Below are positions 10,077 through 16,137 of a stretch of DNA of 32,831 nt, piece after piece. Source of the DNA: an uncultured Erysipelotrichaceae bacterium (GTDB lineage: Bacteria > Bacillota_I > Bacilli_A > Erysipelotrichales > Erysipelotrichaceae); NCBI GenBank assembly GCA_949289855.1, contig CASEPS010000020.1, positions 1-32,831 of the forward strand, given 5' to 3'. The notes under the pieces were generated by a model. The model was not told where the DNA came from. It ran no database searches and was given only the letters and a program-made list of their open reading frames with translations. Positions within the stretch are counted from its first letter, which is position 1. Each line of letters opens with the position of its first letter. Position numbers and translations under genes: made by a program.

Positions 10077-10747
10077 CAGCCTGGGTATATATGCTGCTGT
10101 GTGAAGATGGCAGTTACTATACCGGCTGGACAACCGATGTCGAAAAACGCTTTACAAAACACTGCAATGGTAAAGGGGCAAAGTACACGCGGGTGCACAA
10201 ACCTCTACAAATTGCCTACGCAAAGTGCTATGATGACAAAAAGGAAGCCATGCGTAACGAGTATAGAATCAAACAGCTCTCACACTACGAAAAAGAAAAA
10301 CTGGCTTTAAGCGTTCCGAAGAAAACAGATGGAACGATAGATCTGCATGAGATCTTAAGGAGGAAAATCATGAGCGAATTGAAGTTTTACAAGTGCAACA
10401 AATGCGGCAAGGTCATTGCTGTATTGCACGACACACCAGTACCGACAATGTGCTGTGGTGAGGCGATGACAGAACTCACGGCTAACACAACGGATGCTGC
10501 ACAGGAAAAGCATGTGCCGGTCATCATCCGTGAAAATGGAGAAATCACAGCCCGTGTAGGCAGTGTAGACCATCCGATGATTCCTGAGCATTATATTGAA
10601 TTCCTTGCTTTTGAAACAGATAAGGGATTCAGAATTGCGTATCTCAATCCAGGCGAAGAACCAGCCGCAAAGATCATACAAAATGAAAATGTCAAAGCAG
10701 TGTATGCATATTGCAACCTGCATGGTCTTTGGAAAACAGAAGCATAA
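10073..10747 (+). CDS. GIY-YIG domain protein fused in frame to superoxide reductase
   Basis: Residues 1-95 form a YhbQ/YazA-type GIY-YIG nuclease-like domain: VYM (5-7), YTG (16-18), Arg26, KGAKYTR (34-40) and a likely metal-binding Glu63. Such proteins normally stop at about 95-100 residues. Here no stop codon occurs: the frame passes through DLHEILRRKI straight into Met100 of a complete desulfoferrodoxin, giving 224 residues. The AAGGAGG ribosome-binding site of the second part is itself translated as part of LRR. The start overlaps the permease stop (ATGA). The full-length fusion, the short reductase, or both may be made. YhbQ-type proteins act on nucleic acids; their exact role is poorly defined. 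Confidence 0.8.
   Translation: MTAWVYMLLCEDGSYYTGWTTDVEKRFTKHCNGKGAKYTRVHKPLQIAYAKCYDDKKEAMRNEYRIKQLSHYEKEKLALSVPKKTDGTIDLHEILRRKIMSELKFYKCNKCGKVIAVLHDTPVPTMCCGEAMTELTANTTDAAQEKHVPVIIRENGEITARVGSVDHPMIPEHYIEFLAFETDKGFRIAYLNPGEEPAAKIIQNENVKAVYAYCNLHGLWKTEA
10370..10747 (+). CDS. dfx: Superoxide reductase (desulfoferrodoxin), internal start
   Basis: Numbered from the ATG at 10370, the 125-residue product has Cys9, Cys12, Cys28 and Cys29 (desulforedoxin Fe centre I) and His48, His68, His74, Cys115 and His118 (catalytic Fe centre II). These are the positions known for Desulfovibrio desulfoferrodoxin, so all ligands are intact. The enzyme reduces superoxide to hydrogen peroxide in the cytoplasm of anaerobes. 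AAGGAGG (10357-10363) lies 6 nt before this ATG, strongly suggesting independent initiation within the longer fusion frame. An intrinsic terminator follows 7 nt after the stop. Its last ~40 bp recur at 15465. Confidence 0.9.
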   Translation: MSELKFYKCNKCGKVIAVLHDTPVPTMCCGEAMTELTANTTDAAQEKHVPVIIRENGEITARVGSVDHPMIPEHYIEFLAFETDKGFRIAYLNPGEEPAAKIIQNENVKAVYAYCNLHGLWKTEA

Positions 10748-10754
10748 TCTCATG

Positions 10755-10783
10755 AGAACTCTGTGAAATGCAGAGTTCTTTTT
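10755..10783 (+). terminator. Intrinsic terminator, cassette copy 1
   Basis: AGAACTCTG / CAGAGTTCT stem with a 7-nt loop, then TTTT. It ends the exporter-superoxide reductase operon. The same hairpin is present in copies 2 and 3, and a variant occurs at 16106. Confidence 0.9.
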
Positions 10784-10816
10784 CATTCGTCCCCCGAACA
10801 TGTCATTTCAACACCC
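10784..10816 (+). promoter_or_regulatory. Candidate LytTR operator, copy 1
   Basis: Imperfect direct repeats CATTCGTCCCCC and CATTTCAACACCC start 20 nt apart (10784 and 10804) and end 6 nt before the -35. The block is kept in all three cassettes. Assignment to the island's LytTR regulator is inference from spacing and position. Confidence 0.4.
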
Positions 10817-10822
10817 TGGAGA

Positions 10823-10851
10823 TTTACATTTAAAACACTTGTTCATATAGT
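10823..10851 (+). promoter_or_regulatory. Promoter, cassette copy 1
   Basis: -35 TTTACA (10823-10828), 17-nt spacer, -10 TATAGT (10846-10851). It would drive the mini-ORF and the two small membrane proteins downstream. Confidence 0.7.
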
Positions 10852-10905
10852 GAAATCAGAGATAGAAGCAATGTAAATGGTTCACAAACAAAGGAGGATC
10901 ATCCT

Positions 10906-10977
10906 ATGTGTACAAGTATGGCAAGGTATAAGAACGGGGATGGGTTAACATTCAATCTCAAATGTTGGTTTATTTGA
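10906..10977 (+). CDS. Mini-ORF, cassette copy 1 (23 residues)
   Basis: A 23-codon ORF begins MCTSMARYKNGDGLT and ends in NLKCWFI. AAGGAGG (10891-10897) lies 8 nt upstream, an excellent ribosome-binding site. The first 13 residues are nearly the same in the three cassettes and the tails differ. It could be a leader or signal peptide of this locus. Alternatively it could be the stump of a linear amide C-N hydrolase (choloylglycine hydrolase family), whose mature enzymes start at Cys2 of MCT. I cannot decide between these. Confidence 0.4.
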   Translation: MCTSMARYKNGDGLTFNLKCWFI

Positions 10978-11157
10978 TTGATTGGAAGTTACAGAGATTT
11001 ATGCCTGTTGTTGGATAAATCAACAAATGAATCGCCATTTGATTGACATCACTATGGCAAAAGACTCAGATAGATATGAGCATATATACTGAGTCCGCTC
11101 TCTAAAGACAGAATAGCAATGTTTGAGACGGTGTGCAGCACCGTCATGAAGGAAAAT

Positions 11158-11313
11158 ATGAAAAGAAACATTAAAATTGTCGTAGCATCCATCATTTTGA
11201 TTTTTGTATATTGCCTCCTCACTACTATGCTGAGACTTGAATTTCTAACACTGATAGTATCTACGGTGTTTATCATGATACAAATATGTGTCGTATCGCT
11301 TTTCCGAGAGTAA
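11158..11313 (+). CDS. 51-residue two-helix membrane protein, paralogue A
   Basis: The product starts MKRNIKIVVASIILIFVYCL and has two hydrophobic helices (about residues 5-22 and 31-48) around a short linker containing TTMLRLE. It is a paralogue of the 51-residue protein at 15269-15424: same length, the same MKRNIKIV start and TTMLR linker, and mostly conservative changes. The start is the ATG preceded by GAAGGAAA; earlier in-frame ATGs are not shared by the paralogue. It is the first substantial gene of cassette 1. The function is unknown. Size and context resemble bacteriocin immunity or small regulatory membrane peptides, but nothing in the sequence proves that. Confidence 0.7.
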   Translation: MKRNIKIVVASIILIFVYCLLTTMLRLEFLTLIVSTVFIMIQICVVSLFRE

Positions 11314-11385
11314 ATGAAAACACCATTGGATGCGAACAACCGATGGGACATATAAGAAATCGGATATAGAAAGAGAGGAAATACT

Positions 11386-11658
11386 ATGAATAAATATAGT
11401 CGATATATCTTGCTAGTGATTGGGGTCTTCCTGGTATTGGCAGGCGTGATCATCATTTCTCATAGTAGTTCGTTGTCTGGTAATTCCTTCCCATTTGGGA
11501 TGGACGGTCTTGAACCAGCAAATCGCCAGACAGTAAGTACATATATGATCATGTGGGCGCTGTCATTTGATTTCATTGCCCTGATCATTGCTCTGATTGG
11601 TATTCTTCTGATTCACAGGTTCTTTGTCCTTTCTGATCGGGTGAGTCAACAGAAGTGA
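11386..11658 (+). CDS. Small membrane protein, two helices (90 residues)
   Basis: The product has a hydrophobic helix at about residues 7-25 (YILLVIGVFLVLAGVIII), an extracytoplasmic-looking Ser/Gly/Asn-rich linker (SSSLSGNSFPFGMDGLEPAN), and a second helix at about 53-78 (MIMWALSFDFIALIIALIGI). The ATG at 11386 follows GAGAGGAAA. It shares the cassette 1 transcript with the 51-residue protein and ends before the terminator at 11728-11764. No family recognised. Confidence 0.7.
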   Translation: MNKYSRYILLVIGVFLVLAGVIIISHSSSLSGNSFPFGMDGLEPANRQTVSTYMIMWALSFDFIALIIALIGILLIHRFFVLSDRVSQQK

Positions 11659-11727
11659 CTGTTTTGTGTATCTGCTGTGTGCAAACATTAGAATGCACAT
11701 GTAGTTGTTTTGCATAATCTGTAAGAG

Positions 11728-11764
11728 GAAAGCTTTGGTTAAATTGAAGTCAAAGCTTTCTTTT
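11728..11764 (+). terminator. Intrinsic terminator closing the cassette 1 unit
   Basis: Perfect GAAAGCTTTG / CAAAGCTTTC stem (11728-11737 with 11751-11760), 13-nt loop, then TTTT. It separates cassette 1 from the regulator operon. Confidence 0.85.
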
Positions 11765-11765
11765 G

Positions 11766-11794
11766 TTAACAGAGATTTTAAATCGATTTATAAT
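11766..11794 (+). promoter_or_regulatory. Promoter of the two-component operon
   Basis: -35 TTAACA (11766-11771), 17-nt spacer, -10 TATAAT (11789-11794). The cassette direct repeats are not present upstream, so this promoter may be constitutive. Confidence 0.75.
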
Positions 11795-11851
11795 TGTTAT
11801 CAGAGCAAAGATGTATTCATTTTGTGAAGATTAGAATTGAAGAGGCAATTT

Positions 11852-12556
11852 ATGGTCAGAGTGTTGATAATTGAAGATCATGAAGAAGAAGCACAGCATG
11901 TTAAAGAGGCAATAGTGAGGTTATCTGATTCTTCTACATTGTCCTATGAAATCACGATAATAACGGAGAATTTCAATGAAGAGAAATTATCTGGTTATGA
12001 TTTGTATTTTCTCGATATCAATATGGGTCTAGATAATAATGGCTTTGAAATTGCAAAAACAATTCAACAACAAAATAGTCATGCTTGTATTGTCTTTTGT
12101 TCCAATCATGAAAATCTTGTCTTTGAATCATTCCGCCTTGATGTAATGTTCTTTGTCAGAAAGAGTCATCTGGATCAGGACATTAAGGAAGCGTTATGTA
12201 AATTTGAAAAAGTATATGCTAAGAGATTACAATTTTCTGAGGAATGGATTGGTTTGGATAGATCAAAACAAAAAGTTCAGATGGAAGATATCATATATCT
12301 TGAATCTGATGACAACTATACAATCATTCATTTGAAAGCAAATGATGAGATCCGGATAAAAATGTCTTTGAAAAAAGTAATGGATCAGCTACGGTTTGAA
12401 AAGCTTATTCTGATATCCCGTTCGATAGCCGTAAATTTATTGTATGTGACGGGAATTAACGGCAATTTCATTTATATGGGCAACAAACAACATTTTACAG
12501 CTTCTCAGAGAAAGATGAGTGAAATCAAAAAACTGATTCTGGAGAGTGATGATTGA
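11852..12556 (+). CDS. LytTR-family response regulator (AgrA/ComE-like)
   Basis: A 234-residue regulator. The receiver domain (1-120) has the acidic pair Glu8-Asp9, phospho-acceptor Asp55 in LYFLDINMG, Ser in VFCSNHE, and Lys in FFVRKSHLDQD. The LytTR DNA-binding domain (about 135-232) shows MEDIIYLESDDNYTIIHLKA and LILISRSIAVNLLYV. LytTR regulators bind paired direct repeats about two helical turns apart, and control quorum sensing, bacteriocins and virulence. The ATG at 11852 is preceded by AGAGG and gives the usual N-terminus; an upstream in-frame TTG (11837) is less likely. It is followed by the sensor gene. The DNA is visibly more AT-rich than the core genes. Confidence 0.9.
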   Translation: MVRVLIIEDHEEEAQHVKEAIVRLSDSSTLSYEITIITENFNEEKLSGYDLYFLDINMGLDNNGFEIAKTIQQQNSHACIVFCSNHENLVFESFRLDVMFFVRKSHLDQDIKEALCKFEKVYAKRLQFSEEWIGLDRSKQKVQMEDIIYLESDDNYTIIHLKANDEIRIKMSLKKVMDQLRFEKLILISRSIAVNLLYVTGINGNFIYMGNKQHFTASQRKMSEIKKLILESDD

Positions 12557-12558
12557 TT

Positions 12559-13779
12559 ATGTACATATTAGAAACATGTGTCAATTTAGCTGAGAGTATT
12601 GCGATTGCTATGTTGCTGCTTCAACTTAGTGGGAAGAAATCAACTTCTGCATATGTAAAAACAGCAATTCTTGCCATCATTGATTTCGTTTATATTCAAT
12701 ATATCAATGTCTACTATGGTCTTTCTGAGGGTTTATATGTGTTCTTTGAAATATTGATCCACTTTATTTATGCAATTTCAATGCATGTGAAACCAGCCAA
12801 AGCATTTACTATTGCGACTATTCCGGATTTGTTGCTTGCCTTGATTAATGGTTTATTTTATATCATGATCTCTTTTCTGTTTGGCTTTTACAATATTTCT
12901 TTAGTACTATCTCAATTTCGCATTATCATACTGTTGATCATGTTCTTCATACATGTCATTGTTTTTTATGAATTTTCTATCCAATTCAAGAAATTGGAAC
13001 ATATTGAAAATAATAAATTCTATTTGATGCTTTCTTTGATATGTATTGCAGGAATAGTATTTTTACAATCTTATGTTTCGATGATTTTTAATGGTGTTAC
13101 AGGTAATCTTCTTTTTCTCAGTTTTCTTTCAGGAATGCTTCTTTGTTTGTTTATTGTTATCATCAGCTATCAGACAATGCTGGAAAAAATAGAATACGAA
13201 AAAGAAAAGAACAAATTAATGCAAAATTCCAAAAATGAATGGATGAATTATACGATTAAGGAAAAGGAACGTTATCTGAATGAGTTGTCACATAATGTTC
13301 TCTTGTTTTTACAACTGTTGCAGACGGGAGCGAAAAAAGAAAAGGTTGAGCAGAGTGCCAAAAAGCTTACTTCGCAAATTGAAATGATTGATGTATCTGC
13401 CACAATTAATAATCCTGCATTATCTGCTGCCATAAAAGTGATTGCGGAAGAAGCAGAGAATAAGGGTATACATCTGAAAATTACATATGTATTGCAAAAG
13501 ATAATCGATGTGGATGAAACAGATCTGTATCTGGTCTTGACGCAATTATTGATGAAAGCAATTTCTTTCTGTTCTATGAATACAGAGATGGCAATCGAAA
13601 TCAAAGAAGTAATGGGAAACTGTAAAATTTCTGTTACATACCATGGTGGCAATAAATGTGAAATTGGTGATGAATTAATTAAATTGATCAAAAAGAATAA
13701 TGGTGATATTTTGGTAAAAATGAAGGAAAGGAGAACGGTAATACGTATGGTATTACCTGTCAGGCATAATGAAGATTAG
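12559..13779 (+). CDS. AgrC/ComD-like membrane sensor kinase with degenerate catalytic domain
   Basis: This 406-residue protein has about six membrane helices in residues 1-200, a basic coiled linker (EYEKEKNKLMQNSKNEW), a dimerisation region with the candidate His in ERYLNELSHNVLLFLQLL, and a C-terminal region in the position of a GHKL ATPase. Peptide-sensing HPK10 kinases usually have His-Asp and an N-box like LLDNAIEA. Here His is followed by Asn, and the N-box position reads QLLMKAISFC with no Asn; no glycine-rich G-box is evident. It may be a weak kinase, a phosphatase, or a pseudokinase. ATG 12559 lies 3 nt past the regulator stop. Confidence 0.8.
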   Translation: MYILETCVNLAESIAIAMLLLQLSGKKSTSAYVKTAILAIIDFVYIQYINVYYGLSEGLYVFFEILIHFIYAISMHVKPAKAFTIATIPDLLLALINGLFYIMISFLFGFYNISLVLSQFRIIILLIMFFIHVIVFYEFSIQFKKLEHIENNKFYLMLSLICIAGIVFLQSYVSMIFNGVTGNLLFLSFLSGMLLCLFIVIISYQTMLEKIEYEKEKNKLMQNSKNEWMNYTIKEKERYLNELSHNVLLFLQLLQTGAKKEKVEQSAKKLTSQIEMIDVSATINNPALSAAIKVIAEEAENKGIHLKITYVLQKIIDVDETDLYLVLTQLLMKAISFCSMNTEMAIEIKEVMGNCKISVTYHGGNKCEIGDELIKLIKKNNGDILVKMKERRTVIRMVLPVRHNED

Positions 13780-13927
13780 AGATATAATTTGTGAACAAAT
13801 CATCAAAATTGGTAAGGAACAATTGGAATGCTGTTCGAGATTAGGCATTTATCAGGATGATGTAAGAGATCTCAAAAAGAAGAGACAAGAACTTTCGAAA
13901 AAGAAAATTACGCTAAAGAAATCATAA
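13769..13927 (+). CDS. 52-residue charged protein coupled to the sensor gene
   Basis: This ORF starts inside the sensor gene (11-nt overlap) and encodes MKIRDIICEQIIKIGKEQLE, a Cys-Cys pair at 21-22, and a Lys-rich tail ending in LKKS. It has no signal peptide or membrane helix and looks like a short amphipathic helix plus basic tail. Overlap with the kinase suggests translational coupling. AgrD-like peptide precursors sit near such kinases, but this one lacks the typical precursor pattern. The function is unknown and the ORF could be chance. Confidence 0.4.
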   Translation: MKIRDIICEQIIKIGKEQLECCSRLGIYQDDVRDLKKKRQELSKKKITLKKS

Positions 13928-14055
13928 AAGGAATTTCATCACCAAACATATCATAGTCTGTCACAAATGCATAAAAACTATGAAACAATTTATTTTGATA
14001 TAGATGGGAGGATGAAACAAAAACGAAGGTTGCATAACAGAAGCATAATCTCATG

Positions 14056-14084
14056 AGAACTCTGTGAAATGCAGAGTTCTTTTT
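14056..14084 (+). terminator. Intrinsic terminator, cassette copy 2
   Basis: The same AGAACTCTG / CAGAGTTCT hairpin and T-run as copy 1. It would end the two-component operon. Confidence 0.9.
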
Positions 14085-14117
14085 CATTCATCCCCCAAAC
14101 TTGTCATTTCATCACCC
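14085..14117 (+). promoter_or_regulatory. Candidate LytTR operator, copy 2
   Basis: Direct repeats CATTCATC and CATTTCATC start at 14085 and 14105 (20 nt apart), just upstream of the -35. The block is retained although the neighbouring promoter sequence has diverged. Confidence 0.45.
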
Positions 14118-14123
14118 GCGATA

Positions 14124-14152
14124 TTGAAAATGAACAGACTCATTCTTATGAT
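14124..14152 (+). promoter_or_regulatory. Promoter, cassette copy 2
   Basis: -35 TTGAAA (14124-14129), 17-nt spacer, -10 TATGAT (14147-14152). The sequence differs from copies 1 and 3 but the geometry is the same. Confidence 0.7.
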
Positions 14153-14206
14153 GAAATCAGGAAAAGAAAGACTATAACAGTATCAGAGACAAAGGAGGAT
14201 AATCCT

Positions 14207-14269
14207 ATGTGTACATGTATGGCAAGGTATAAGAACGGAGATGGATTAACGGTCTTTCTCATAAGTTGA
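14207..14269 (+). CDS. Mini-ORF, cassette copy 2 (20 residues)
   Basis: The ORF begins MCTCMARYKNGDGLT and ends VFLIS, with AAGGAGG (14192-14198) 8 nt upstream. Paralogous to the mini-ORFs at 10906 and 15666; see copy 1 for the alternatives. Confidence 0.4.
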   Translation: MCTCMARYKNGDGLTVFLIS

Positions 14270-14408
14270 TTTATCTGACTTGATAAAGAATTAAGTGCAT
14301 TTGATTAGTTGAAAGTTGTATGGATCTGGTTTGTTGGATAAATCAATGAGTGATTCGACATCGCTGACGTAATGAGATAACCGCGTAATATAAAAAGGAG
14401 AAAAAAAC

Positions 14409-15251
14409 ATGAAAAAGATAACTGTAATTCTGTGCACAATATTTAGTTTATGTATTGTGTCTCCTGTTAAAGCAGAATCTGCTTCAGATATGCAGCATCC
14501 TGTTTCGTTTTGTTCGAATGAATATCAGTCATTGTTGAATGAATATGACAGATTATCGAAGGAAGCATTAGTTAAGCCAAATACAGCTAATGTTTCACAA
14601 GTGACAAGTTTGAAGGCTTCAATAGAAAGTTATCCATCATATATCTATTCTTTGCAAAGTAAAAGTTATGAGGAACTGAAACAATTCAATTATACAGATT
14701 CCCAAATTAGCGCAATTAAGGATTATGATGGTTCTGAACAAATGACTATTGCTGCTTCTGCAACAGTTTCAGGAAGTGTTTCACTTTCCTCACGCAGTTA
14801 TAATTCTTCCTCAAATAAAACTACAGCCAGAGTTACTGCGACAGTTCGTTGGAATGGTGTTCCGTTTGTAAAATCAGCAGATACATTTAGTACTGCATTG
14901 GCAGGTTCTTCTGCGAATTTTATGAGAACATCTTCATCTCTCAGAGTTGTATATCCAACATCTGGTACAGTATACGGATCGAACTACTCTGTTACTCTAG
15001 GAGCTGGGGTTTCTTATAAGTTTGGAATTGCGGATGCAAGTGGAGTTTTTTCGAGTGCGACACTAACATATGATGCAATTGCAGAAGGAAATGTAACTGT
15101 CATTGGGTTTGGAGCTGCCTATTCACATGCCGTTACATCTGGGTTGTCTTCAATAGGCATATCGATTGGTGTGTCCGGAGTAGGAATTTCATTTTCTGCA
15201 AATCTTGGAAATGATTTGATGTGGCAATATGCTAGTACAAGAGTTTATTGA
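14409..15251 (+). CDS. Secreted protein of unknown function, beta-rich
   Basis: This 280-residue protein has a clear Sec signal peptide (MKK, hydrophobic core to about residue 17, cleavage probably after VKA at 22). The mature N-terminal part is helical and polar (residues 30-110, with YEELKQFNYTDSQISAIKDY). The C-terminal 160 residues are Ser/Thr/Gly/Ala-rich with alternating hydrophobic residues, suggesting a beta-sandwich or beta-barrel-like fold, and end in LMWQYASTRVY. No lipobox, LPxTG or membrane anchor is seen, so it is probably released. The start follows AAAAGGAG. It is the main product of cassette 2, upstream of the 51-residue membrane paralogue B. A toxin, adhesin or bacteriocin-like role is possible but not shown. 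Confidence 0.8.
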   Translation: MKKITVILCTIFSLCIVSPVKAESASDMQHPVSFCSNEYQSLLNEYDRLSKEALVKPNTANVSQVTSLKASIESYPSYIYSLQSKSYEELKQFNYTDSQISAIKDYDGSEQMTIAASATVSGSVSLSSRSYNSSSNKTTARVTATVRWNGVPFVKSADTFSTALAGSSANFMRTSSSLRVVYPTSGTVYGSNYSVTLGAGVSYKFGIADASGVFSSATLTYDAIAEGNVTVIGFGAAYSHAVTSGLSSIGISIGVSGVGISFSANLGNDLMWQYASTRVY

Positions 15252-15268
15252 TCTGAAAGGGGGAAAAT

Positions 15269-15424
15269 ATGAAACGGAATATAAAAATAGTCATAGCATC
15301 CTTCATTTTGATTTTTGCATATTGCCTGATCACTACTATGCTCAGGATTGAGTCTCTACCAATGATGACAGCTACTGTGTTTATTATGTTGCAGATATGC
15401 ATCGTATCTGTTTTCAAGGAGTGA
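15269..15424 (+). CDS. 51-residue two-helix membrane protein, paralogue B
   Basis: The product starts MKRNIKIVIASFILIFAYCL and ends IVSVFKE, with two helices around TTMLRIE. It is colinear with paralogue A at 11158-11313 without gaps. The ATG follows AAAGGGGG and lies 17 nt after the secreted protein, so the two are co-transcribed from cassette 2. A partner or immunity role for the secreted protein is an untested idea. Paralogue A is downstream of cassette 1 without such a secreted protein. Confidence 0.7.
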   Translation: MKRNIKIVIASFILIFAYCLITTMLRIESLPMMTATVFIMLQICIVSVFKE

Positions 15425-15514
15425 TTGTTTAGAGAGTTATGGATAGCAGTGCATGACTGTTGAAATGCATATTGCAACCTGCATGGTCTTTGGAAACAGA
15501 AGCATAATCTCATG

Positions 15515-15543
15515 AGAACTCTGTGAAATGCAGAGTTCTTTTT
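15515..15543 (+). terminator. Intrinsic terminator, cassette copy 3
   Basis: AGAACTCTG / CAGAGTTCT hairpin followed by T-rich sequence. It closes the cassette 2 transcript after paralogue B. Confidence 0.9.
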
Positions 15544-15576
15544 CATTCATCACCCAAACCTGTTATTTCAACACCC
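15544..15576 (+). promoter_or_regulatory. Candidate LytTR operator, copy 3
   Basis: Direct repeats ATTCATCACCC and ATTTCAACACCC with a 20-21 nt offset, upstream of the -35 at 15583. This copy shows the repeat symmetry most clearly. Confidence 0.45.
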
Positions 15577-15582
15577 GGGATA

Positions 15583-15611
15583 TTTACATATAAAACACAT
15601 GTTCATATAGT
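15583..15611 (+). promoter_or_regulatory. Promoter, cassette copy 3
   Basis: -35 TTTACA (15583-15588), 17-nt spacer, -10 TATAGT (15606-15611). Both hexamers match copy 1. Confidence 0.7.
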
Positions 15612-15665
15612 GAAATCAGAGATAGAAACAAGGTAAAAGGTTCACAACCAAAGGAGGATAATCCT

Positions 15666-15722
15666 ATGTGTACATGTATAGCAAGGTATAAGAACGGAGA
15701 TGGATCAGGCGGGATCAGATAG
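15666..15722 (+). CDS. Mini-ORF, cassette copy 3 (18 residues)
   Basis: The ORF begins MCTCIARYKNGDG and ends SGGIR, with AAGGAGG (15651-15657) 8 nt upstream. Similarity to the other copies stops after the GDG codons, so the tail is unrelated. Confidence 0.35.
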   Translation: MCTCIARYKNGDGSGGIR

Positions 15723-15804
15723 ACAAATCTTTTCTAAATCTGATAACAATTGTAACTCATCAAATTGAAGTAAATAAGTTATGGCATATGCCTGAAGTAA
15801 TGGT

Positions 15805-16062
15805 ATGAAAATGAAAAAAATCTATTATGATATAGCCAAGTACTTTTCAATTACTGCATTGATCATCATACGTATTCCAACTATTGATTTTCCGGTAAAT
15901 GCAATCATAGCAATCTTGTGTTTAAGTATATGCCTGTTGTTCATGGTAAAGGGAAAGAAATGCAAAGACGGTGCTGTGGAAGATTGGGAAAAAGGCTACA
16001 AAATGGTGGATACAGCCAATTGGGTCACATATGGACTGATATTGATCTTATTGCTGTTTTAG
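15805..16062 (+). CDS. Small membrane protein, about three helices (85 residues)
   Basis: The protein starts MKMKKIYYDIAKYFSITALI and has hydrophobic segments at about residues 12-26, 30-48 and 70-85, with a charged loop between (KGKKCKDGAVEDWEKGYKMV). It is the only substantial gene downstream of cassette 3. No good Shine-Dalgarno precedes the ATG at 15805, and the next in-frame ATG (15811) is no better, so the start is uncertain. No family recognised. It ends 43 nt before the terminator at 16106. Confidence 0.6.
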   Translation: MKMKKIYYDIAKYFSITALIIIRIPTIDFPVNAIIAILCLSICLLFMVKGKKCKDGAVEDWEKGYKMVDTANWVTYGLILILLLF

Positions 16063-16105
16063 CACCTGTTACTGAATGCAGGGAAGAATGAATGCTGTAT
16101 TCCGG

Positions 16106-16137
16106 GAGAACTTTGAGTAATGCAGAGTTCTCTTTTT
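16106..16137 (+). terminator. Intrinsic terminator at the right edge of the island
   Basis: GAGAACTTTG / CAGAGTTCTC stem with one G-U pair, 7-nt loop, then TTTTT. Stem and loop length resemble the cassette terminators, so it may be a fourth, older copy. Confidence 0.85.

Follow-up and report, generated by a model that had tools for sequence, protein, structure and literature searches.

A family of mini-ORFs marked by the hexapeptide RYKNGD

Three short open reading frames (mini-ORFs) in a 32,831-nucleotide stretch of an uncultured Erysipelotrichaceae genome (contig CASEPS010000020.1, assembly GCA_949289855.1; the whole stretch is hereafter the window) very probably belong to a real family that is conserved at the peptide level, tied to genes for exported proteins and marked by the hexapeptide RYKNGD. 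All three lie on the forward (+) strand and were delineated by sequence and family pattern: mini-ORF 1 at 10906-10977 (MCTSMARYKNGDGLTFNLKCWFI, 23 aa), mini-ORF 2 at 14207-14269 (MCTCMARYKNGDGLTVFLIS, 20 aa) and mini-ORF 3 at 15666-15722 (MCTCIARYKNGDGSGGIR, 18 aa). The same Shine-Dalgarno (SD) sequence, AAAGGAGGAT, precedes each of them (10890-10899, 14191-14200 and 15650-15659, respectively), so that the initial annotation of the window, which described three ORFs of these lengths with strong ribosome-binding sites (RBS), is confirmed exactly. The informative part of the shared sequence is RYKNGD, which marks the family, and not MCT; most members start with MLxxN-.

The entry point to the family was a 23-aa mini-ORF, MLSYNPHRYKNGIIYYLGIWRYY, which carries the RYKNG core and is located upstream of a homologue (locus L086) of the 280-aa protein encoded behind mini-ORF 2. 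A strict MCT pattern is matched in the window's own genome only (1 of the 70 genomes of the genus) and not at all in the wider genome and viral contig sets; the feature looked lineage-specific until the core in L086 prompted a broader pattern (SD, ATG and the codons for RYKNG), with the reversed pattern as the control. In the 272 genomes of the bacterial family, the broader pattern yields 41 matches, distributed among 20 genomes, against 8 for the control. A set of 14 genomes gives 32 and 0, respectively, and the 118 Streptococcus genomes searched give 83 (all but 3 of them RYKNG) and 1. The matches far exceed those of the reversed pattern, which excludes chance as the origin of the mini-ORFs. 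When translated, the matches from the bacterial family are mostly short peptides with RYKNGD at or near the end. Six matches come from the window's own genome; among those outside the window, two (L305 and L306) precede export-type genes and one (L307) does not.

A stricter pattern, applied to 84,980 species genomes, retrieved 76 stretches, 65 of which were judged genuine and 11 due to chance. The genuine stretches belong to Streptococcus, Gemella, Anaerococcus, Peptoniphilus, Parvimonas, Peptostreptococcus, Tissierella, Lachnospiraceae, Eubacterium yurii, Erysipelotrichaceae and some metagenome-assembled genomes. One of the latter is labelled as a proteobacterium (L157), but three further metagenome-assembled genomes carry the identical mini-ORF, so that the contig is probably mislabelled. 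Among 392 genomes drawn from the window's phylum, 4 matched, all from the window's own family, and none matched the reversed pattern. A search with N and G fixed and length limited to 32 collected 173 distinct peptides from Erysipelotrichaceae, Tissierellia, Lachnospiraceae, Gemella and Streptococcus, with the consensus M-L-x-[MFLY]-N-[VLPI]-[SGAQ]-R-Y-K-N-G-D; the Arg is residue 8 in 120 of the 173, and in 27% the stop codon directly follows the Asp. The pattern also occurred in two viral contigs, within a longer frame in one and at the start of a 71-aa helix-turn-helix-like frame in the other; neither was accepted as a case of phage carriage.

Apparently, the RYKNGD family is undescribed. 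It has no match in Rfam, Pfam or NCBIfam: a Pfam scan of two of the window mini-ORFs returned nothing, the Rfam 15 covariance models found nothing in the window and, in 12 loci, recognised only rRNA, tRNA and one azaaromatic riboswitch, and a permissive search gave only chance-level matches. The string RYKNG appears in the text of no paper in the literature searched, and YKNGD appears there only in four papers that are unrelated by title and abstract. With a length of just 10 to 32 codons, the ORFs seem to have escaped notice, although their motif is strongly selected in common streptococci and in gut anaerobes.

Selection on the peptide

The selective regime is most clearly seen in 20 streptococcal loci with tandem copies (L255-L274), two of them in genomes known from the species-genome search. 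A scan that left every third base free produced 77 in-frame matches in these loci, and all 77 encode RYKNGD; the pattern used to recruit the loci had likewise placed no constraint on third bases. The copies are related by descent, so that they are not 77 independent events. The codons vary throughout: Arg is encoded by 6 different codons, Tyr by TAT or TAC (53 and 24 copies), Lys by AAA or AAG (63 and 14), Asn by AAT or AAC (41 and 36), Gly by GGA, GGT or GGC (52, 21 and 4) and Asp by GAC or GAT (43 and 34). None of the 77 copies has a TAR codon, an Asn at the Lys codon, a Lys at the Asn codon or a Glu. The hexapeptide remains constant while its six codons change synonymously; therefore, selection acts on the peptide. 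Rare variants of the hexapeptide are RYSNGD, RFKNGD, RYRNGD and SYKNGD.

Genes for exported proteins behind the mini-ORFs

Outside the streptococci, 64 distinct mini-ORFs were analysed for a downstream gene, defined as an SD-preceded ORF 15-350 nt away. Such an ORF follows 47 of the mini-ORFs, and 44 of the 47 products have a strongly hydrophobic N-terminus of the export or membrane type, compared with 214 of the 522 background ORFs from the same loci (Fisher p = 3e-13). There were three exceptions: L102 and L119, which are near-identical and read as signal peptides just below the cut-off, and L106, where the product resembles a cytoplasmic enzyme. A scan of 17 distinct downstream products identified Lactococcin_972 (PF09683), DUF6973, Amidase_6 and C39/C70 peptidases, whereas most had no match. 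In a Streptococcus pneumoniae genome, the single intact copy lies 179 nt upstream of a lactococcin-972-like gene. The same genome contains a second RYKNGD site (L303), with a broken frame, upstream of a gene read as lactococcin-972-like, and the promoter region of this site includes the cre-like sequence AGAAAGCGGTTTCA.

A LytTR response regulator is encoded near the window copies, in three loci of genome G215 (L095, its overlapping duplicate L109, and L116) and in L126, with a partial, weak match in L119. These loci are few, and a LytTR/HPK10 system is accordingly not supported as a general partner of the mini-ORFs.

Tandem arrays in streptococci

Genuine matches are present in 24 of the 118 Streptococcus genomes (26 with any match), with up to eight per genome. 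The 20 loci introduced above hold 2 to 8 tandem copies each, some of them decayed, and mutY adjoins the array in 19. In all 20, the array promoters overlap a cre-like (CcpA) sequence, as defined by a pattern written after the promoters had been seen. A conserved element of the [AC]CTCCTTATGA type is located near the end of the array in 17 loci, and a conserved SD-AUG-stop element is found in 9. With cre-like promoters and terminator-like ends, the arrays look like transcription units of their own. We infer that, in streptococci, the element in its tandem form constitutes a stand-alone regulatory RNA, and the arrays look like an undescribed dual-function RNA. To our knowledge, tandem arrays of near-identical mini-ORFs are not the basis of any described regulatory system.

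A candidate regulatory leader peptide and its alternatives

As a whole, the reading of the mini-ORF as a translated regulatory leader peptide, the most probable of those considered, appears to us about evenly balanced between right and wrong, and a ribosome-pausing mechanism comes out somewhat below that. What was found is a translatable short ORF upstream of a gene and conserved at the peptide level, as expected of an upstream ORF, and the position in cis outside the streptococci favours a leader. The stand-alone arrays, in turn, argue for a separate function of the peptide or of mini-ORF translation. Given how little the hexapeptide changes from one class of Bacillota to another, and how often its Arg is residue 8, the target is expected to be comparably conserved and would most simply be the ribosome. 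Under this scenario, ribosomes making RYKNGD would pause under some condition, and a paused ribosome would affect how stable the downstream mRNA is or how it is translated; a pause on an invariant peptide could serve both the cis leaders and the arrays. The designation as leader peptides in the initial annotation stands in outline, short ORFs with their stops being conserved in many species, with a mode of action that we infer.

Several observations weigh against this interpretation. No SD-preceded ORF is found 15-350 nt downstream of 17 of the 64 non-streptococcal mini-ORFs, some of which lie at contig ends. In the 20 array loci, no coding gene that belongs to the array units was recognised, which a purely cis-acting leader fails to explain. 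A ribosome-profiling list of 114 short ORFs from S. pneumoniae D39, as given in the main text of PMC9426450, contains no NRYKNG string. Finally, the spacers between mini-ORF and gene show no excess of structure over upstream controls (mean z of -0.43 and -0.40, respectively, for 33 leaders), so that classical attenuation is unsupported and most leaders would have to act by means other than the usual alternative hairpins; individual leaders (L141, L112 and L124) are structured.

Among the alternatives, release of the RYKNGD peptide to act in trans as a signal or regulator, co-produced by the operons for exported proteins and with the streptococcal arrays of 2 to 8 copies raising the dose, is a serious if less probable contender. 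It would account for arrays that look like separate transcription units, lack a coding gene and yet keep the hexapeptide, and the LytTR regulators of the window and of the three G215 loci (two overlapping) would fit it, although such regulators are found near few loci. Against it, pheromones tend to differ from species to species, unlike this hexapeptide, which is almost constant across classes; the mini-ORF peptides have no apparent signal peptide or processing signal, and outside the streptococci the mini-ORF comes first and close upstream of a gene, an arrangement that a role in trans does not need. It is improbable that the mini-ORF is simply a landing site at which ribosomes stabilise the mRNA, such that only a strong RBS near the 5' end matters and the peptide is incidental: the very strong SD sequences, the unstructured spacers and the SD-AUG-stop elements in 9 of the 20 streptococcal arrays agree with such a role, which alone leaves conservation of the peptide alongside free synonymous change unexplained.

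We ascribe next to no probability to two further explanations. Under one, the mini-ORFs are carried along passively by a recombining promoter cassette and owe their retention to recent duplication only; the window copies do lie in a duplicated cassette (see below), but the occurrence of the same hexapeptide across classes, in unrelated sequence contexts, contradicts it. Under the other, proposed in the initial annotation, MCT with Cys2 is the stump of a truncated gene of the choloylglycine hydrolase family (PF02275) that once followed the reductase gene upstream of mini-ORF 1. The window's own genome indeed encodes one intact choloylglycine hydrolase (C3), on another contig, with the N-terminus MCTCITYKNQG...; it starts MCTCITYKNQGSFYFGRN in a similar RBS context. 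The N-terminal MCT is all that the window mini-ORFs have in common with the hydrolase, and other members of the RYKNGD family start MLxYNPxRYKNGD and similarly. A tblastn search with 16 hydrolases detected no hydrolase sequence downstream of the copies in any frame (best E = 0.69 for the window stretch, and 0.074 for 39 sequences that surround the reductase of relatives), and no hydrolase remnant was found in either set. In 29 loci of relatives, the reductase gene is followed by pnp directly (17 loci), by other genes or by the contig end, never by a hydrolase, and no SD-preceded start of the MC[TSRA] type was found near it. Conservation of the short ORFs together with their stops, which the initial annotation had named beforehand as refuting a stump, was found in many species.

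A bolder generalisation of the leader-peptide reading, which we offer tentatively and consider rather less likely than the reading itself, is that RYKNGD is a single old nascent- or released-peptide code by which Bacillota would coordinate secreted competition proteins; it would be made at the head of operons for exported proteins and from carbon-source-controlled array RNAs of streptococci, with up to eight copies and a conserved anti-Shine-Dalgarno-like element. Because the motif connects secreted proteins that otherwise have nothing in common (lactococcin-972-type bacteriocins, peptidases, amidases and unknown families), it can be used to find new bacteriocin-like effectors. It also raises the pointed question of whether ribosomes pause on RYKNGD and, if so, what frees them.

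Comparison with known systems

The erm leader peptides are regulatory leaders of a comparable kind, and the R-x-K of RYKNGD recalls the (+)x(+) motif of macrolide-dependent stalling. Another such element, toiL of Escherichia coli, is presented in PMC12121999 as a regulatory leader peptide, or upstream ORF, that senses translation stress. With these leaders the RYKNGD mini-ORFs share a short ORF with a strong RBS, a location upstream of a gene and a conserved peptide motif. Unlike them, one nearly invariant hexapeptide precedes many unrelated genes for exported proteins in several classes, the spacers lack structure above the background, and stand-alone tandem arrays exist in streptococci.

Small pheromone ORFs of streptococci, such as SHP and ComS/XIP, are likewise short and unannotated; the RYKNGD core differs from them in being hydrophilic, nearly invariant between species and present in multiple tandem copies. 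No Rgg gene was recognised beside the mini-ORFs in the loci read, in which no search aimed at Rgg was made. The initial annotation had further compared the tail NLKCWFI of mini-ORF 1, next to an AgrC-like sensor, to a Cys-containing pheromone core. This likeness did not hold up, given that tails are unconserved between copies or species; NLKCWFI is confined to copy 1, and no AgrB-like gene, as would accompany an AgrD-like pheromone, was detected among the Pfam-scanned ORFs of the island. Lactococcin 972 operons (PF09683/TIGR01653) represent one class of genes behind the mini-ORF (L149; the pneumococcal L148 is below the cut-off), whereas most genes in this position encode secreted proteins of other kinds, among them the 280-aa protein in the window.

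The repeat cassette and the island in the window

The three cassettes with their elements and the seven island genes described below are on the forward strand. Each mini-ORF of the window is carried by one of three copies of a repeat of about 215-250 nt, 82-92% identical (cassette copies 1, 2 and 3 at 10704-10990, 14030-14278 and 15465-15737). Copy 1 comprises, in order, the end of the reductase gene, a terminator, a sigma-A-like promoter site, the SD and the mini-ORF. The last 32 nt of the upstream reductase gene are common to copies 1 and 3, which indicates that the cassette arose by duplication. An identical 30-nt terminator-like hairpin is found at 10754-10783, 14055-14084 and 15514-15543. 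Upstream of the mini-ORFs, promoter-like sites are assigned by match to the consensus: TTTACA-17-TATAGT at 10823-10851 (mini-ORF 1) and 15583-15611 (mini-ORF 3), and TTGAAA-17-TATGAT at 14124-14152 (mini-ORF 2). The block that consists of the SD and mini-ORF (57 nt) has fewer differences than the promoter stretch (103 nt) in the pair 1-2 (4 vs 30, p = 0.001) and the pair 2-3 (3 vs 29, p = 0.0004), and is not more conserved in the pair 1-3 (5 vs 12, p = 0.79). A palindrome, AGGATNATCCT, overlaps the RBS in all three copies (10895-10905, 14196-14206 and 15655-15665) and could be a hairpin or an operator.

The mini-ORFs head three units of an island flanked by a superoxide-reductase-like gene and pnp. 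In the 29 loci of relatives with a similar reductase, pnp comes next in the 17 already mentioned, 5 have between one and three genes before it, and 7 have a contig edge or other genes instead. The segment at 10.8-16.1 kb is hence an island unseen at this site in the relatives examined. The first gene downstream of mini-ORF 1 encodes a 51-aa small membrane protein (11158-11313) and is followed by a gene for a 90-aa membrane protein (11386-11658) with no family above the cut-off. The middle of the island is occupied by the genes for the LytTR response regulator (11852-12556; Pfam Response_reg and LytTR) and a multi-pass sensor-kinase-like protein (12559-13779), AgrC/HPK10-like by context and with no Pfam match. 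A 52-aa ORF at 13769-13927 (MKIRDIICEQIIKIGKEQLECCSRLG...), with no family match, overlaps the end of the sensor kinase gene.

Mini-ORF 2 is followed by the gene for the 280-aa secreted protein, which has a signal peptide (14409-15251), and then by a gene for a second 51-aa small membrane protein in an immunity-like position (15269-15424), a paralogue, 71% identical, of the one behind mini-ORF 1. Homologues of the secreted protein were detected in 9 other genomes among the 244 searched, along with a second, weak match in its own genome; a single-sequence structure model reached a predicted local distance difference test (pLDDT) score of 40 and was not used for a fold search. Across this family of about 280 aa (window 14409-15424; L079-L088, in Erysipelotrichaceae), the secreted protein is often followed by a membrane protein of 50-65 aa. 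The two proteins, which have no family in Pfam or NCBIfam, resemble a bacteriocin/immunity pair. The first gene downstream of mini-ORF 3 encodes an 85-aa membrane protein (15805-16062), beyond which a diverged copy (87%) of the reductase terminator is located at 16104-16134, upstream of pnp.

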